A stretch of 38,111 nt of DNA from Acidobacteriota bacterium. Its GTDB lineage: Bacteria > Acidobacteriota > Vicinamibacteria > Vicinamibacterales > CAVVIG01. The notes below the pieces were generated by a model that saw only the letters and a list, made by a program, of their open reading frames with translations, searched no databases and had not been told where the DNA came from. The position numbers were made by a program, and so were the translations under genes. The stretch spans positions 1 through 38,111 of the forward strand of contig JAHFUI010000025.1 in NCBI GenBank assembly GCA_023265175.1. The letters run 5' to 3'. Shown here piece by piece: positions 31,206-38,111 of this stretch (positions are counted from its first letter, which is position 1; every line of letters starts with the position of its first letter).

Positions 31206-32387
31206 TCAGGCATGCGGCTCGCCCCCGGCGCCGCCGAGACGCCGAATCTTGAACCACAGCGTCACAAGAAACCCGACAATGACCACCGTCGCGGCGAACA
31301 GTCCGCGGCGCCGTACTTGCAGTTCGTGCAACGCGCGCTCGCCAACAGTCTGTGACTCCTGGGCCGCTCGGACGCCTGGGTCGGCCATGTCGGCGAATGG
31401 CTTCGTCGCGAATGCGTGCACGAGGACACGCGAGTGGATCTCGTGCTCTCGCGCGTCACGCAGCGCCGCGCGTCCGTCGTCCACGAGCATCCCCGCGCGT
31501 TCGGCGCGCGTCAGCACCACTTCGGCGGCGCCGATCTTTGCTGTCATGTCGGCAAGACCTTTTTGGGTGGCTGTAATCGTCGAGGCCCCCTTCATCCTTT
31601 CGTCGTGGCACATCGCACACACGGCCGGCTCCTTGAACCCGACCCACGCATCGGTGGGATGCTCGACGCGGTGATTACCGTGGCAGGCAAGACATTCCGG
31701 CTGATCGATCTGGTCGAAAATCGCCTTTTTCGGACTTGCTCGAAACAACTCCGCCTCGCGCACGTGGCACTGCGCGCAGACATTCGCCACTTGCGTCACT
31801 CCAGGAGGCGTGGCGCCATGGCTCCCGTGGCATGTGCTGCACGTCGGCGCCGACGTGTCGCCGCGCTTCAGGAGCGCCGCGGCGTGGACGCTCGCCGACC
31901 AGTCCTTGACCGGCGTCGCCCTGCTACCAAAGGCCGCCATCCGCACCGGATCGTCGTGGCACTTCGCGCAGGTCTGCACCACGTTCAGCGGCGCTACCGA
32001 TGAGCGTGCGTCTCGCACTCTGCGGATGCCGTGTGCGCCGTGACAGTCGCTGCACGTCGCGACACGCGTTTCTCCGCCCGACATCCGCTTGCCGTGTGCG
32101 CTCGTCAAGTACTGGGTGTATTGGTCGACGCGCACTTGCGGATCGAACCCTTTCATGTACGCGGGATCGCTGTGACATTTGCCGCAGAGTGGCGCAATTG
32201 CCGTGCGAGGCAACGCCGCGTACGTCGCTGGCGCGCCTTGATGACAGGCCGCGCACGTGAGCCCGGCCGTCGCGTGCACGTCCTCTTTGAACGCCTGCTG
32301 CGCAGCCGTTTCCGTCGTCTGAGCGCTCCCAGACGAAGCACGGAGCACGATGGCCATCGCCGCCAGTAAGCCGACCATCATGGTCAT
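31206..32387 (-). CDS. Octaheme cytochrome c, membrane-anchored, bc-complex partner
   Basis: 393 residues. Signal-like N-terminus (hydrophobic, to about residue 22), then eight CXXCH motifs: His at 49, 72, 116, 144, 187, 208, 236 and 261. Several come in close pairs with extra His residues (CHGAHG, CHGSHG, CHGNHR), suggesting bis-His hemes as in NrfB/NapC-like multiheme carriers. A helical, heme-free part (about 270-355) and one C-terminal membrane helix (about 367-385, [16 protein letters not shown]) follow, so the heme part faces the periplasm. The ATG overlaps the stop of the cytochrome b gene by ATGA. It occupies the position where cytochrome c1 or f would be encoded. No catalytic CXXCK or Tyr-linked heme motif is seen, so electron transfer rather than catalysis is expected. 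Confidence 0.9.
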
Positions 32388-33481
32388 GGAGTAGGCCCTC
32401 CCCCCTGGGCGCGCAGCGCGAGGAACGTGAGCAGCGCCATGTAGGCGAGCACCGCCGCCGCGAACCATACGAGAACGCGCCGGGCGTGCGGCCGGTCAGG
32501 CACGACGAACGGCAACACGACCATGAGCGCGGCGCCGATTCCCAGCGCAGCGACGACAAGCAGCTCCCCGTTGACGCCGAACACCGACGCCGGCACGTAT
32601 TTCAGCGTTTGAAACGCCCAGAGGAAATACCATTCGGGGCGGATTCCAGCAGGCGCTGACGCAAACGGATCCGCTTTGACGCCGAGCTCCCACGGATAGA
32701 ACGCCGCAAGCCCAGCCAGCAGCGCCAGCCCAACTGTCCATGCGAACAAATCGCGGAGCGCAAAATCTGGAAGAAAGGGAATTGACGCGGTCGCTCGCCC
32801 CGTCCGGCGGCTCTCTTCCCAGACCGACGGTGGCACGCTCATCCCGTGGCGCTGGACGAGGAACAGGTGCAGGCCGAGCAGCGCGGTCGCGATCGCGGGC
32901 AGAATGGCGACGTGTACGCCGAAGAGTCGCGTCAGCGTGGCACCGGTCACGTCCCTGCCGCCGCGCATGAAGCGGACGATGAAGTGGCCGACGCCTGGCA
33001 CGGTGCCGGCCATGTCGGTTCCCACGCGCGTGGCGAAGAACGAGAGCTCGTTCCACGGAAGCAGATAGCCGGTGAACCCGAAGGCGAGAATCAGCAGCAG
33101 CAAGAACGCTCCGCTGACCCACGTGATCTCCCGGGGCCGGCGGTACGCGTGCAGGAACAGCGCGCTGAACAGATGGGCGAGCGCCGTGGCCACCATCACG
33201 TTCGCCGACCACGCATGAATCGACCGGATCAGCCAACCGAACGGGACGCGCGTCATGATGAACTGGACGCTTTCGTAGGCCTCGCCGGCGCTCGGGCGGT
33301 AGTAGAGCAACAGCAGCCCGCCAGTGAACACCTGGACGATGAAGAAGAACAGCGTCATTCCACCGAAGTAGTACCAGATCGAGTAGCGATGCTCCGGGAC
33401 GCGCTTGCGCCTGAGCGCCTCGACGATGTCCGCCACCGGGACGCGTTCCCCGAGCCAGGCGCGAAGCTGGTAGGAGGTCAT
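32384..33481 (-). CDS. Cytochrome b of a bc-type quinol-cytochrome c reductase (single-chain)
   Basis: 365 residues holding both the heme-binding half and the Qo half. The heme b His pairs lie in [19 protein letters not shown] (spacing 13) and [18 protein letters not shown] (spacing 14); the 14-residue spacing in the second pair is the cytochrome b6-type pattern. The quinol-oxidation motif is intact: [14 protein letters not shown]. About seven or eight hydrophobic helices are visible, fewer than mitochondrial cytochrome b. It oxidises quinol in the inner membrane, giving one electron to the Rieske protein and one to the b hemes. ATGA overlaps tie it to the Rieske gene upstream and the octaheme gene downstream. 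Confidence 0.93.
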
Positions 33482-33945
33482 GGTTTTTTCGAAACGATGA
33501 GCTCGTCGTTGGCCACGTTCACCTGGTACGCCTCCAGCGGACGCGGCGGCGGACCGGCGATGTTCCGCCCGGTCAGGTCGTAATGACCGTTATGGCACGC
33601 ACACCAGATGTGTTCCAGATCAGGGCGATACTGGACGGTGCAGGCCAGGTGCGTGCACGTCGCCGAAAACGCGCGATAGTCGCCGGCTGCGGTCCGGACG
33701 AGGATCGCCGGTACCGATCCGAACGGCACGATGCGCCCGGAGTTCAGCGCCAGCGCCGAGGCCTTGCCCGCGTTGACCGACTGCGTCGAGGCCTCCGGAA
33801 TCTCCGGCGGAATGAGGTAGCGGATCACAGGGTAGAGGATCGAGCCGGCGACCCCAGCCGCCCACGCGCCGAGCAGCCAGTTGAGGAATCCGCGGCGGCC
33901 CGGTGCGCCTGAATTCAAGCGCGCGACAAAGACGTCTGATGCCAC
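33478..33945 (-). CDS. Rieske iron-sulfur protein of the bc-type complex
   Basis: 155 residues if started at the GTG at 33945, a choice that is not firm; the frame runs further up without a good start signal. A Tat-type signal anchor ([20 protein letters not shown]) lies at about 17-36. The 2Fe-2S ligands are in CTHLAC (Cys97, His99) and CACHNGHYD (Cys115, His118), with Cys102 and Cys117 placed for the usual disulfide. The short basal part and simple loop resemble b6f/actinobacterial-type small Rieske proteins. It takes an electron from quinol at the cytochrome b Qo site and would pass it to a c-type heme, here presumably the octaheme protein. Confidence 0.9.
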
Positions 33946-34010
33946 GCTACGTTGTGCCTTTGAGCGTCCCGAGATAGGCGATACACTGAGTGAAGGGAGG
34001 CATCGAGACA

Positions 34011-34157
34011 ATGGCAAAGGATCCTGTCTGCGGCATGCAGGTCAGCGAACAGGCGGCTGCCGGTAGAACCGAATACCATGGCAAGACGTACTACTTCTGC
34101 AGCCCGGCGTGCAAGGCCAGTTTTGACAAGAATCCCGAAAAGTATGCGACGAAATAG
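34011..34157 (+). CDS. YHS-domain mini-protein (48 residues)
   Basis: An ATG ten bases after GAAGGGAGG opens a 48-codon gene. It consists of nothing but a YHS domain: KDPVCGMQV at the start, then YHGKTYYFCSPACKASFDKNPEKY. Cys7, Cys30 and Cys34 are the conserved metal-binding type residues, as in the YHS pieces found on copper/silver P-type ATPases and in small metal-handling proteins. It lies divergent from the Rieske gene and convergent with the two-component regulator. With a TolC-family efflux gene nearby, a role in heavy-metal (copper-like) binding or delivery is plausible, not shown. Confidence 0.85.
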   Translation: MAKDPVCGMQVSEQAAAGRTEYHGKTYYFCSPACKASFDKNPEKYATK

Positions 34158-34175: not shown

Positions 34176-35597
34176 TCACGCCACGCCGGTTGGCGGTTCA
34201 CGCTCATCCACCGTTTCATCACCGGTCTTCGGGCGCTCCAGCCCGAACTTCTGCATGCGATAGAGCAGCGTGCTGCGCGTGATCCTCAGGTAGGCTGCCG
34301 CGCGTGTCTGATTCCAGCTGTGCTTGTGCAGCGCGGCCCGCAGCAGCTCTTTCTCGACCTCTTCGAGCGAAATCCCCTCGTCGGGCAACTCCATGCGTAA
34401 GGTGCCCACCTGCCGCTCCGCCGACTGGAGGCGCTCCGCCAAATCGTCCATGGCGAGCACCCCGTCTCGATCAAGCACCAACGCGCGTTCGATCACATTT
34501 TCCAGCTCCCGAATGTTTCCGGGCCACGCGTACCGGTTGAAGGCCGCATAGACACGCTTGTCGACTTGAGGACGCGGCTTCCCGAGCCGCCCGGCGTGCT
34601 TGTCGAGAAAGTGGTCGACCAATAGCGGAATGTCGTCAGCGCGCTCGCGCAACGGTGGCATGCGAATCGACACCACGGCCAGGCGGTAGTACAGATCGTC
34701 CCTGAACGTGCCGTCCGCAATCATCTTCTCAAGGTCGCGGTTCGTGGCAGCGATCACGCGGACATCGACCTTTATGGGTCTCGTGTCGCCGACTTTGTCG
34801 ATCTCCCGCTCCTGAAGGACGCGCAGGATCTTCACTTGCAGCATCAGCGGCAGTTCGCCGATTTCGTCCAGGAAGATGGTGCCCCGATCCGCCACTTCGA
34901 ATTTGCCCTTCTTGTCGGCGACCGCGCCCGTGAACGATCCGCGTCGGTGACCGAACAATTCCGATTCCAGGAGCTGCTCGGGAATGGCCCCGCAGTTGAT
35001 CGTGACGAACGGACCACGCGAGCGGCTGCTATGGAAGTGAATCGCTTTCGCGAGCAGCTCCTTGCCGGTTCCGCTCTCACCATCCAATAAGACGGTGGTT
35101 TCGGTCTGCGCGACGCGGCCGGCCGTGTCGGTCACCGCGCGCATGGCTCGCGATCCCGCGATCATGTTGGCGAAGGAAAACCGTTCCGCGATCACTTGGC
35201 GAAGCTGGCGGTTCTCCGTGGCGAGCGCGGCCATGTCGAGCGCTTTCCGGACCGTCGCCCGAAGCCGATCGCGATCGAACGGTTTCGTGAGGTAGTCGAA
35301 GGCGCCGAGCTTCATCGCTTCGACCGCCGAGCTGATCGTGCCGTGTGCCGTGAGCAGGACCACCGGCAAATCCGGCTGTATGGCTTTGAGCCGTGCGAGC
35401 AGGTCCAGTCCGTCCATCTCGGGCATCCGGATATCGGTCAGCACGAGGTCAATCGAGCGGTCCCGGAACAGCTGCAGTCCCTCGGCTCCGGCTGCCGCCG
35501 TGACCACGTCGTAGCCTTCCTCGCGGAGGTTGTATTCCGCGACTCGCCTGAGGCTATCGTCATCATCGATCAGGAGAATGGATTTCCGGTCAGTCAT
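34176..35597 (-). CDS. NtrC-family sigma-54-dependent response regulator
   Basis: 473 residues. Receiver with Asp55 (LVLTDIRMPEMDG) and Lys105, AAA+ domain with Walker A GESGTGKE (173-180), Walker B TIFLDEIGEL, and a Fis-type HTH at the end (NQTRAAAYLRITRSTLLYRMQKFGL). The sigma-54 loop reads GSFTGA (220-225), Ser for the first Ala, a change seen in some active relatives. Its ATG overlaps the kinase stop. Its likely target is the divergent operon starting near 36879, which has a sigma-54-like promoter and a palindromic upstream site; the first gene of that operon encodes a stand-alone copy of the same HTH type. ZraR-like metal or envelope response is a sensible comparison. Confidence 0.95.
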   Translation of the reverse strand: MTDRKSILLIDDDDSLRRVAEYNLREEGYDVVTAAAGAEGLQLFRDRSIDLVLTDIRMPEMDGLDLLARLKAIQPDLPVVLLTAHGTISSAVEAMKLGAFDYLTKPFDRDRLRATVRKALDMAALATENRQLRQVIAERFSFANMIAGSRAMRAVTDTAGRVAQTETTVLLDGESGTGKELLAKAIHFHSSRSRGPFVTINCGAIPEQLLESELFGHRRGSFTGAVADKKGKFEVADRGTIFLDEIGELPLMLQVKILRVLQEREIDKVGDTRPIKVDVRVIAATNRDLEKMIADGTFRDDLYYRLAVVSIRMPPLRERADDIPLLVDHFLDKHAGRLGKPRPQVDKRVYAAFNRYAWPGNIRELENVIERALVLDRDGVLAMDDLAERLQSAERQVGTLRMELPDEGISLEEVEKELLRAALHKHSWNQTRAAAYLRITRSTLLYRMQKFGLERPKTGDETVDEREPPTGVA

Positions 35598-36703
35598 GTC
35601 GTTGTCGCGTGAGTGTCGATCGATTCCACGGGTGCGCGCGCCGCATCGAGCGGCAGCAGCACCCGCACGAGGGTTCCTCGGTCTGGTTGAATGATGTCGA
35701 TTCTCCCGTGGTGGCTCTGCACGATCCGCTGCGAGACGGACAACCCGAGGCCGGTACCGGCTTTCTTCGTGCTGAAGAAGGGCTCGAATACCTTCGCCAG
35801 ATGCTCCGGCTTAATCCCCGGTCCCTGGTCCAAGACATCGATCGTCAGCGTCTGAGAATCGGCCGTCACCGTGATCTGCACGCGGCCGCCTGGCGGCGTG
35901 ACCTGAACGGCATTGAGGACGATGTTGAAGAACACTTGCGCCATCTGCTCAGAGTCGACCAGCACGTGTGGGACGTGTGTTCGGTTGACCTCAATGGCCA
36001 CACCGTGTCGCTCGGCCTCGGCGGAAATCAGGGACACGACGCGATCGAGGACGTCGAACATATCAACGTCTCGACGCTCGGGGTCGTGAGGGCGCGCATA
36101 GGTCAGGAATTCCGAAATCAGGTCATCGAGCCGCGCGATTTCGCGGGCCGCCAGCGTCCCGAACTCCGACTCAGGGCTGCCTGTGGCTGCCCGCGATGTG
36201 ATGATCTCGAGCGCGCCTTTCACGCCGGCGAGCGGGTTCCGGATCTCGTGCGCGAGCCCGGCGGCAATCTCGCCGATGCTGGATAGGCGATCGGCGTGGC
36301 GAAGCTGTTCGTGCGACGCCCGCAAGTCGGCGTTTGCCGCTCCGAGCGAGGCGACGGCCTGCTGATGGCGCCGGCTCGCGCGTCGCTCGGCCGACGCGAG
36401 TACGCCACCGACCGCACCGGCGATCAGAAATCCAACTGCCTGTCCGTATTCGCTGAGGAGGAACGGTCTATTACCGGGCCACGCCCCATGAAAATGCGTG
36501 ATCGATCCCAGGCCTGCGGCCAACGCCGCCGCGACGCCACCAGGCAATCCAAACCAGAACGCGGCCACGAGGATCGGCGCGTAGCAGAGATCCTGATACG
36601 CGACGTGCAGCACGATCCGGGCCGGGTCGGTCGCGTGGTGAGCGACGCCGATGGCGACGAGCACCGCCGCAATGACGATTCCCCGGACCAGGTCGCGTCG
36701 CAT
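35594..36703 (-). CDS. NtrB/ZraS-type membrane sensor histidine kinase
   Basis: 369 residues. The N-terminal 105 residues contain three or four hydrophobic helices with short loops and clustered His (VAHHATD, ITHFHG), a membrane-embedded or short-loop sensor rather than a large periplasmic domain. A linker coiled coil (about 106-138) leads to HisKA with His152 (GLAHEIRNPLAGVKG) and HATPase_c with NIVLNAVQVTPPGG, DQGPGIKPEH and GTGLGLSVS. Translationally coupled (ATGA) to the NtrC-type regulator at 34176. The signal is unknown; exported metal or redox-active quinone are possibilities only. Confidence 0.93.
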   Translation of the reverse strand: MRRDLVRGIVIAAVLVAIGVAHHATDPARIVLHVAYQDLCYAPILVAAFWFGLPGGVAAALAAGLGSITHFHGAWPGNRPFLLSEYGQAVGFLIAGAVGGVLASAERRASRRHQQAVASLGAANADLRASHEQLRHADRLSSIGEIAAGLAHEIRNPLAGVKGALEIITSRAATGSPESEFGTLAAREIARLDDLISEFLTYARPHDPERRDVDMFDVLDRVVSLISAEAERHGVAIEVNRTHVPHVLVDSEQMAQVFFNIVLNAVQVTPPGGRVQITVTADSQTLTIDVLDQGPGIKPEHLAKVFEPFFSTKKAGTGLGLSVSQRIVQSHHGRIDIIQPDRGTLVRVLLPLDAARAPVESIDTHATTT

Positions 36704-36733: not shown

Positions 36734-36749
36734 TGTCTGTTTTCAGACA
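36734..36749. promoter_or_regulatory. Candidate NtrC-type enhancer, tgtctg-N4-cagaca
   Basis: A perfect inverted repeat with 6-base arms and a TTTT centre in the 177-base gap between the kinase (minus) and the HTH-efflux operon (plus). It ends about 102 bases upstream of the sigma-54-like promoter at 36852-36868, a usual enhancer distance, and 31 bases from the kinase start, so it could also autoregulate the two-component genes. Confidence 0.55.
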
Positions 36750-36851
36750 GTCGGCCTGAGGCTGCCGGAAAACACACACTACACACCTCGGCCGCGGAGG
36801 CAGAAACGGACTGAAACCGCCACAAATTCACCGTTGCGCCACGTTGCGTCA

Positions 36852-36868
36852 CCGGCACCGTCCTTGCC
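36852..36868 (+). promoter_or_regulatory. Candidate sigma-54 promoter of the HTH-TolC operon
   Basis: ccGGCACcgtccTTGCc carries intact GGCAC and TTGC cores with GG and GC ten bases apart. Transcription would begin close to 36879, only two bases before the first possible GTG of the next gene, which argues for leaderless translation or a start further in. Confidence 0.65.
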
Positions 36869-36880
36869 CCTCCCGTCATC

Positions 36881-37162
36881 GTGCGTGCCACGACCTCCAG
36901 CGACGAGCATACAACGGTTGCAATTCGACGGGCCGAGGATGCGAGCACTTCCGCCGTGACGCTCATCGTCCCGGACGCGGGCCTCGACCTCGGTGCCGTC
37001 GAACGCGCGCTGATCCGGTTCGCGCTCGAGAGCCACGGCGGCAACCGGACGCACGCCGCCGCGTTCCTCGGGCTCTCGCGTAGCGCGCTGCTGTACCGGA
37101 TGCAGAAGTTTGGACTGGCCGTGCCGTGCGTCTCGCCGGCAAGACCTGGTGAGCACTCATGA
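36881..37162 (+). CDS. Stand-alone Fis-type HTH protein
   Basis: 93 residues if the GTG at 36881 is used; a GTG at 36956 would give 68 and is favoured if the mRNA begins near 36879. Neither has a good ribosome site. The recognisable part is one Fis/HTH_8 domain: LGAVERALIRFALESHGGNRTHAAAFLGLSRSALLYRMQKFGL (two helices, then the HTH). The tail SxLLYRMQKFGL is nearly the same as in the NtrC-type regulator at 34176, so it looks like a cut-out copy of that DNA-binding domain. No receiver or AAA+ domain is present, so it cannot activate sigma-54 itself. It may compete for or share the regulator's sites, acting as a modulator. Its stop overlaps the TolC-family gene start by ATGA. Confidence 0.75.
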   Translation: MRATTSSDEHTTVAIRRAEDASTSAVTLIVPDAGLDLGAVERALIRFALESHGGNRTHAAAFLGLSRSALLYRMQKFGLAVPCVSPARPGEHS

Positions 37163-38111
37163 ACCGAACGTCACTGACTCTTCTGCTTTCTCTCGTGCTG
37201 CTCTTCTTCGGCTCGCCGCCGTCGCTTTCCGCGCAATCGACAGTCGTCGCTCGCAGCACGAGTCAAGCACAGGGCACGACGCTCAAGGATCTGGTCGCCG
37301 AACTCGAGCGCGCGAATCCAGAGCTCGGCTCCGGACGCCGTGAGATCGACATGCGCGTCGCGCGGATCGCACCAGCCGGCGCGCTGCCCGACCCGACGAT
37401 CAGCGCCGGGTTCATGAGCGGCCTGCTGCGCTCACCGTTTTTCCCTTCCACGAACCCGTCAGACAGCTTTCGCCAGTTTGGCGTGTCACAAGAGTTTCCG
37501 TATCCGGGCAAGCTGTCGCTGAAAACGAAGATCGCCACGACCGAGGCCGACGCCGAGCGCTGGAATTTCGAATCGACGCGGCGGCGGCTCGTGTCCGACT
37601 TGAAGAGCGCCTACTTCGAGTACGTGTACGTCAACCACAGTCTTGCGGTGCTGGCACGAAACAAAGAACGCCTGGAACAATTCCGCCAAATCGCCGAAGC
37701 CCGTTTCAGCGTGGGTCGAGCTATTCAGCAGGACGTGATCAAGGCGCAACTTGAAGTGTCGCTGCTGATCGAGCGACAGGCGACACTCGAACAGCAGCGA
37801 ACCGCGCTCAGCGCCGCGATCAATGGGTTGCTCTACCGAAAGCCCGACGCACCGTTGGACGTCGCGCTCGACTACGAGCGGGCGCCGCTCCCGCAGCGTC
37901 TCGAGCAGCTTCAAGGCTTGGTCCAGCGGAACAACCCGATGCTGAAACGCGACGAGCGGGCCATCGACCGCGGCCAGCAGGCGCTGGCGCTCGCCAAACG
38001 GGAGGTCCTGCCGGACTTCGCCGTGAACGTCACGACGCAGCAGATGGTGGGCGGCATGCCGTGGATGTACGGCGTCGACGTCATGGTAAAGGTGCCGCTC
38101 TACTGGCAGCG
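37159..38111 (+). CDS. TolC-family outer-membrane efflux protein (runs off the right edge)
   Basis: 317 codons are visible and no stop is reached. Signal peptide to about SLSAQ (residue 26). The body has the long-helix pattern of the OEP family: LKDLVAELERANPEL, FGVSQEFPYPGKLSLKTKIATTEADAERW, RRLVSDLKSAYFEYVYVN, ERLEQFRQIAEARFSVGRAIQQDVIKAQLEVSLL, AAINGLLYRKPDAPL, then a second repeat begins (QGLVQRNNPMLKRDERAIDRGQQALALAKREVLPDF). The SQEFPYPGKL and AIQQDVIKAQ wording is that of CzcC/CusC-type metal efflux partners. Adaptor and RND pump genes would be expected beyond the window. It is coupled to the HTH gene and lies behind the sigma-54-like promoter. Confidence 0.9.
   Translation, partial: MNRTSLTLLLSLVLLFFGSPPSLSAQSTVVARSTSQAQGTTLKDLVAELERANPELGSGRREIDMRVARIAPAGALPDPTISAGFMSGLLRSPFFPSTNPSDSFRQFGVSQEFPYPGKLSLKTKIATTEADAERWNFESTRRRLVSDLKSAYFEYVYVNHSLAVLARNKERLEQFRQIAEARFSVGRAIQQDVIKAQLEVSLLIERQATLEQQRTALSAAINGLLYRKPDAPLDVALDYERAPLPQRLEQLQGLVQRNNPMLKRDERAIDRGQQALALAKREVLPDFAVNVTTQQMVGGMPWMYGVDVMVKVPLYWQ

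Follow-up and report, generated by a model that had tools for sequence, protein, structure and literature searches.

The 38,111-nucleotide stretch of DNA analysed here (the window), which is one whole contig ending inside a tolC gene, encodes a stand-alone Fis-type DNA-binding protein at the head of a TolC-family efflux operon. Its conservation in relatives, the layout of its operators and promoter, and the position of its start codon point to a sigma-54 two-component system that controls a heavy-metal-type RND pump and includes its own damping modulator, a reading to which, as a whole chain, we give a probability of about 40%. The HTH-tolC pair is divergent from a kinase/regulator pair (Table 1); the kinase, in which Pfam recognises no sensor domain, is the probable partner of the regulator. 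A 48-residue YHS-domain protein, possibly metal-binding (34011-34157 (+), Pfam E=3e-21), is encoded convergently with the regulator gene, and antisense traces suggest the same YHS neighbour in the genomes G190 and G001 (L113, L069). Also beside the two-component system, genes for a Rieske protein, a cytochrome b and a multihaem cytochrome c stand in a row (31206-34017 (-)).

Table 1. Coordinates of the features discussed, in window numbering
Feature	Position	Strand	Basis and remarks
NtrC-type response regulator	34176..35597	-	Pfam Response_reg, Sigma54_activat, HTH_8
Membrane histidine kinase	35594..36703	-	HisKA and HATPase_c; 4-bp overlap with regulator gene
Operator (enhancer) TGTCTG-N4-CAGACA, TGTCTGTTTTCAGACA	36734..36749		Exact; recurs upstream of sigma-54-like sites in relatives
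Second, degenerate operator TGCCGGAAAACACACA	36763..36778		29 bp beyond the first operator; mismatched at 3 of 12 positions; shuffle P=0.001
Sigma-54-like promoter CGGCACCGTCCTTGC	36853..36867	+	GG-N10-GC spacing; equivalent site in all six copies
Stand-alone Fis-type (HTH_8) gene	36881..37162	+	93 aa, GTG start; ORF, Pfam, six homologous copies, purifying selection on HTH part
TolC-family outer-membrane efflux gene	37159..38111	+	Pfam OEP E=6e-27; runs off contig end; ATGA overlap with HTH gene

Pfam matches of the 93-residue protein are confined to HTH families, with no receiver or AAA+ domain, just as the original prediction had it; HTH_8 (PF02954) covers residues 39-77 (36995-37111) and scores 51.7 bits (E=7e-14) against a gathering cut-off of 22. 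The predicted placement just ahead of, and overlapping with, the efflux gene was likewise confirmed, the tolC ATG at 37159 being part of the ATGA overlap. An AlphaFold2 model has a dimerisation helix at residues 37-51 and the HTH at 56-63/67-76, with a pLDDT of about 90, the remainder being disordered, and the nearest solved structures are those of Fis, NtrC1, NtrC4 and ZraR. A 68-residue form starting from an alternative GTG at 36956 is possible, because the N-terminal 30 residues evolve loosely, whereas purifying selection on the HTH part is clear (pN 0.05-0.27 vs pS 0.31-0.67).

The small protein had also been described as essentially the HTH of the neighbouring regulator, on the basis of a shared LLYRMQKFGL end. 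That end is indeed identical in the two proteins; however, LLYRMQK(F/Y)GL is widespread among NtrC-type regulators and thus does not by itself tie the small protein to its neighbour. Within its own genome the small protein matches the HTH of the neighbouring regulator best (48% over 62 residues, E=1.8e-14; next best 6.5e-8), and its closest named match is a regulator from a Pyrinomonadaceae bacterium. In a tree based on 52 columns, the six stand-alone proteins described below form one clade (98/99 support) that is not nested within that of the neighbour's HTH, which speaks against a recent duplication of the neighbour's C terminus, though a joint clade with the neighbour's HTH is not rejected (AU p=0.23). 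The description therefore appears fair with respect to likeness, but not as implying a simple copy or demonstrated descent. The recognition helices of the small protein and its neighbour have two differences (S for T, A for T). The same A is present in a regulator of G077, the kinase promoter of which has a one-mismatch operator, implying that the change is compatible with the same site; given that the tree keeps the stand-alone proteins apart from the neighbour's HTH, their binding specificity may have drifted.

A profile built from three copies and searched against 162 genomes of the order found six stand-alone copies in five genomes, i.e. that of the window, G190 (two copies), G453, G467 and G433, with E values of 6e-49 to 6e-29, compared with 3e-18 and weaker for the HTHs of full regulators; no further copies were found in a 396-genome sample of the phylum. 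Five of the six directly precede a TolC homologue (63-70% identical in the relatives, i.e. G190 twice, G453 and G433), so that the check on gene order in other genomes proposed with the original prediction had a positive outcome; in G467 the next frame opens with the same ATGA overlap and the contig ends about 150 bases on. Five copies are on a contig with this regulator, the orthologues of which are 79-81% identical in four other genomes, and the contig of the sixth, the second copy of G190, ends about 0.8 kb upstream; the divergent layout of the window is repeated in G433. The clear separation of the six copies from full regulators, together with the five that precede tolC and the five accompanied by the same regulator, argues for the proposed circuit.

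In three cases (G190 twice, G453) the operon continues into genes for a CusB-like adaptor and a CusA/CzcA-family RND protein. It is in G190 that the RND gene of the operon is assigned to the CusA/CzcA family (TIGR00914, 1124 bits vs a cut-off of 701), with homologous genes in the second G190 module (G190b), G453 and G080, the window contig itself stopping within tolC. TolC homologues of about 56% identity or less are without the small gene, including that of G080, which has the same regulator, operator, promoter and layout. Each of the two HTH-tolC-cusB-cusA modules of G190 (L113, L114) has a TonB-like gene upstream on the other strand. A candidate from L051 (Rokubacteriota) was rejected as a different Fis-type HTH with another recognition helix, and a plasmid search gave only weak matches (<60% identity), either to full sigma-54 regulators or to unannotated stretches. 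The genome of the window encodes a second small stand-alone HTH_8 protein on contig C83 (L175:6077-6616 (-); recognition helix KRSTLGDRINRCGV), in the vicinity of hydrogenase-like and cytochrome-like genes; its likely ATG lies about 27 nt beyond the start predicted from a perfect sigma-54 consensus, TGGCACGACGGTTGC at L175:6534(-).

Both the operator palindrome and the sigma-54-like promoter of the original prediction hold up. The palindrome has no other exact copy in the 4.9-Mb genome and, allowing up to one mismatch, the pattern has one match in the window against 0.09 expected; it lies 119 bp upstream of the sigma-54-like site, from which transcription is predicted to start at about 36879. 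The window has seven sigma-54-like sites with up to two mismatches to the consensus, both strands together, which corresponds to an expectation of about 0.01 for one strand of the 131 bp concerned. The same predicted sigma-54 promoter layout, i.e. GG-N10-GC with an upstream activator site, precedes all six copies, the palindrome lying 118-143 bp upstream of the GG-N10-GC site and having as many as three mismatches in G190b, the least conserved case. The palindrome also precedes the kinase genes of G190, G453, G001 and G077, at 85-90 bp from a downstream sigma-54-like site, which ties it to this regulator family, and that of the window is probably the binding site of the NtrC-type regulator. 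G190 (L113:7320) and G453 (L156:10570) also have exact palindromes inside homologous coding sequence, some 1-2 kb away from the HTH gene, probably a coincidence common by descent.

All six HTH-gene promoters have, in addition, a second, weaker operator at +29 to +32 bp, i.e. about three helical turns, from the first (shuffle P 0.001-0.055 each, the values not being independent because the copies are related by descent), whereas nothing was found at the same offsets in five related promoters without the gene (that of G080 tolC and those of the kinase genes of G190, G453, G001 and G077). The presence of this second operator-like site only in promoters preceding the HTH gene, along with the near-identical recognition helix, makes binding of the small protein to the operators likely; the second operator could equally serve a second regulator dimer.

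We infer a circuit in which the kinase would phosphorylate the regulator, which would then bind TGTCTG-N4-CAGACA and activate the sigma-54 RNA polymerase at its predicted promoter. The first gene of the transcript, starting practically at the 5' end, would give a small Fis-type protein, probably a dimer, in which the dimerisation and recognition helices are retained but not the ATPase, and translation would pass via the ATGA overlap to TolC and, in the relatives, on to the CusB- and CusA-type genes. The small protein would probably return to the operators of its own promoter, where it may occupy regulator sites or pair with the regulator's HTH, and the occupied sites or mixed dimers would limit activation once the operon is on. 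Feedback damping of this type, as originally proposed, is plausible, and the circuit is favoured by the restriction of the second operator to promoters with the HTH gene and by the high confidence with which the dimerisation helix and HTH are modelled. Against damping, nothing else marks the promoters that have the gene as in need of it, and the sequence traces of a co-activator would be no different; whether the small protein represses or helps cannot be read from sequence.

The co-activator reading, which ranks second and fits almost as well as damping, is that a small Fis-like dimer on the second site bends the DNA or steadies the regulator on its enhancer, so raising activation in a feed-forward manner. 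The Fis-type fold, the spacing of about three helical turns between the two sites, and the bending of DNA by the stand-alone Fis-type proteins Fis and NinH (PMC7166090) are all consistent with such an architectural role. We nevertheless consider it somewhat unlikely, because the gene lies inside the operon that it would help to start, such that its product could act only after induction, and because G080 lacks the gene while having the same regulator, operator and promoter.

In all six copies the start codon is at +3/+4 of the predicted sigma-54 start (12 nt counted from the -12 C), the transcription start being predicted 2-3 nt before an in-frame GTG (five copies) or ATG (one copy, G467), and no Shine-Dalgarno sequence is present ahead of any of the six, the transcript leaving no room for one. 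Given that 5-9% of the local sequence consists of start trinucleotides, six of six is well beyond chance, even when descent is allowed for, and the GTG/ATG swap supports the predicted codon as the real start. The HTH-gene mRNA looks nearly leaderless, and leaderless genes are predicted in many bacteria, including Acidobacteria (13% on average, three genomes) (PMC3160421). These observations, along with the overlap (ATGA or TGATG) between the HTH gene and the one that follows it in five of the six copies, would also suit a leader gene, i.e. one at which ribosomes load at the 5' end of the mRNA and pass to tolC, with the protein itself mattering little. Such a role is improbable given the purifying selection on the HTH part, which a leader does not need, and the gap, instead of an overlap, in G433.

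The distinctness of the stand-alone clade from the neighbour's HTH would fit an independent regulator that is co-expressed with the pump, but which acts mainly at other promoters, e.g. those of other metal-stress genes. This we regard as decidedly improbable, since the exact operator is present once in the genome and one-mismatch sites (C55, C83, C105) are no more frequent than matches to the reversed control pattern; a wider regulon based on these sites was rejected, the C105 site being, moreover, inside a coding frame. Other short HTH_8 frames (G492, G512) proved to be truncated regulator ends, but a pseudogene, functionless fragment or assembly artefact is effectively ruled out here by the presence of six intact copies across five genomes, in which promoter, start codon and selection are conserved.

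With respect to known systems, the proposed resemblance to ZraSR holds broadly, in that a sigma-54 response regulator (receiver, AAA+, HTH), with HTH and AAA+ similar to those of ZraR, is paired with a kinase. It does not hold at the level of the family cut-offs (419.7 vs 760 for ZraR, 186.6 vs 479 for ZraS), of the sensor domain, which is unrecognised, or of the pump of the relatives, which is a CusA/CzcA RND; the divergent gene is the chaperone gene zraP in ZraSR, but HTH-tolC here. The G190 order of tolC, CusB-like adaptor and CusA/CzcA-family RND is like that of Cus/Czc operons; textbook operons of this type are under OmpR-type regulators and are not known to include such an HTH gene. The C-terminal domains of NtrC1, NtrC4 and ZraR have the same fold and recognition-helix class as the small protein, and the C terminus of the neighbour aligns with its linker-to-HTH part; it differs from NtrC-type activators in the absence of receiver and AAA+ domains, in being encoded by a separate gene and in forming its own clade. 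Fis is similar in length (98 vs 93 residues) and likewise combines a dimerisation helix with an HTH (E about 1e-6 in profile matches to 1fip and others), but the small protein scores 21.3 bits against the Fis cut-off of 99 (NCBIfam NF001659), has no match to Fis upstream of the dimerisation helix and, unlike Fis, is encoded in a pump operon with a sigma-54-like promoter. NinH of phage lambda, a 68-residue stand-alone Fis mimic that dimerises and bends DNA (PMC7166090), is likewise a small Fis-type HTH protein, but is a phage gene product with no two-component or pump context and with its HTH near the N terminus.

HTH_8 proteins, sigma-54 two-component systems, heavy-metal RND operons and stand-alone Fis-type proteins, e.g. 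NinH (PMC7166090), are each already known singly. The points added to the original prediction are the predicted near-leaderless start in six of six copies, the second operator only in HTH-gene promoters, and the grouping of the proteins in one clade, rather than as recent copies of the neighbour's HTH; none of the papers searched describes such a gene, nor a paired second operator combined with a conserved gene that leads the operon, a negative that counts for little as evidence. It is possible, though we suggest it only tentatively, that these proteins are a distinct family of stand-alone NtrC-type DNA-binding domains, produced from near-leaderless sigma-54 transcripts, that antagonise their own enhancer-binding regulator via a dedicated second operator and so act as a built-in limiter for a metal pump. 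The circuit is compact and testable, with G080, which has the same layout without the gene, providing a matched natural control. Sigma-54 circuits are usually described as tight switches under one enhancer-binding protein; a conserved operon-borne protein consisting solely of the DNA-binding part would offer a simple means of tuning such a switch, and would parallel the ancestral relationship noted between Fis and NtrC (PMC7166090).
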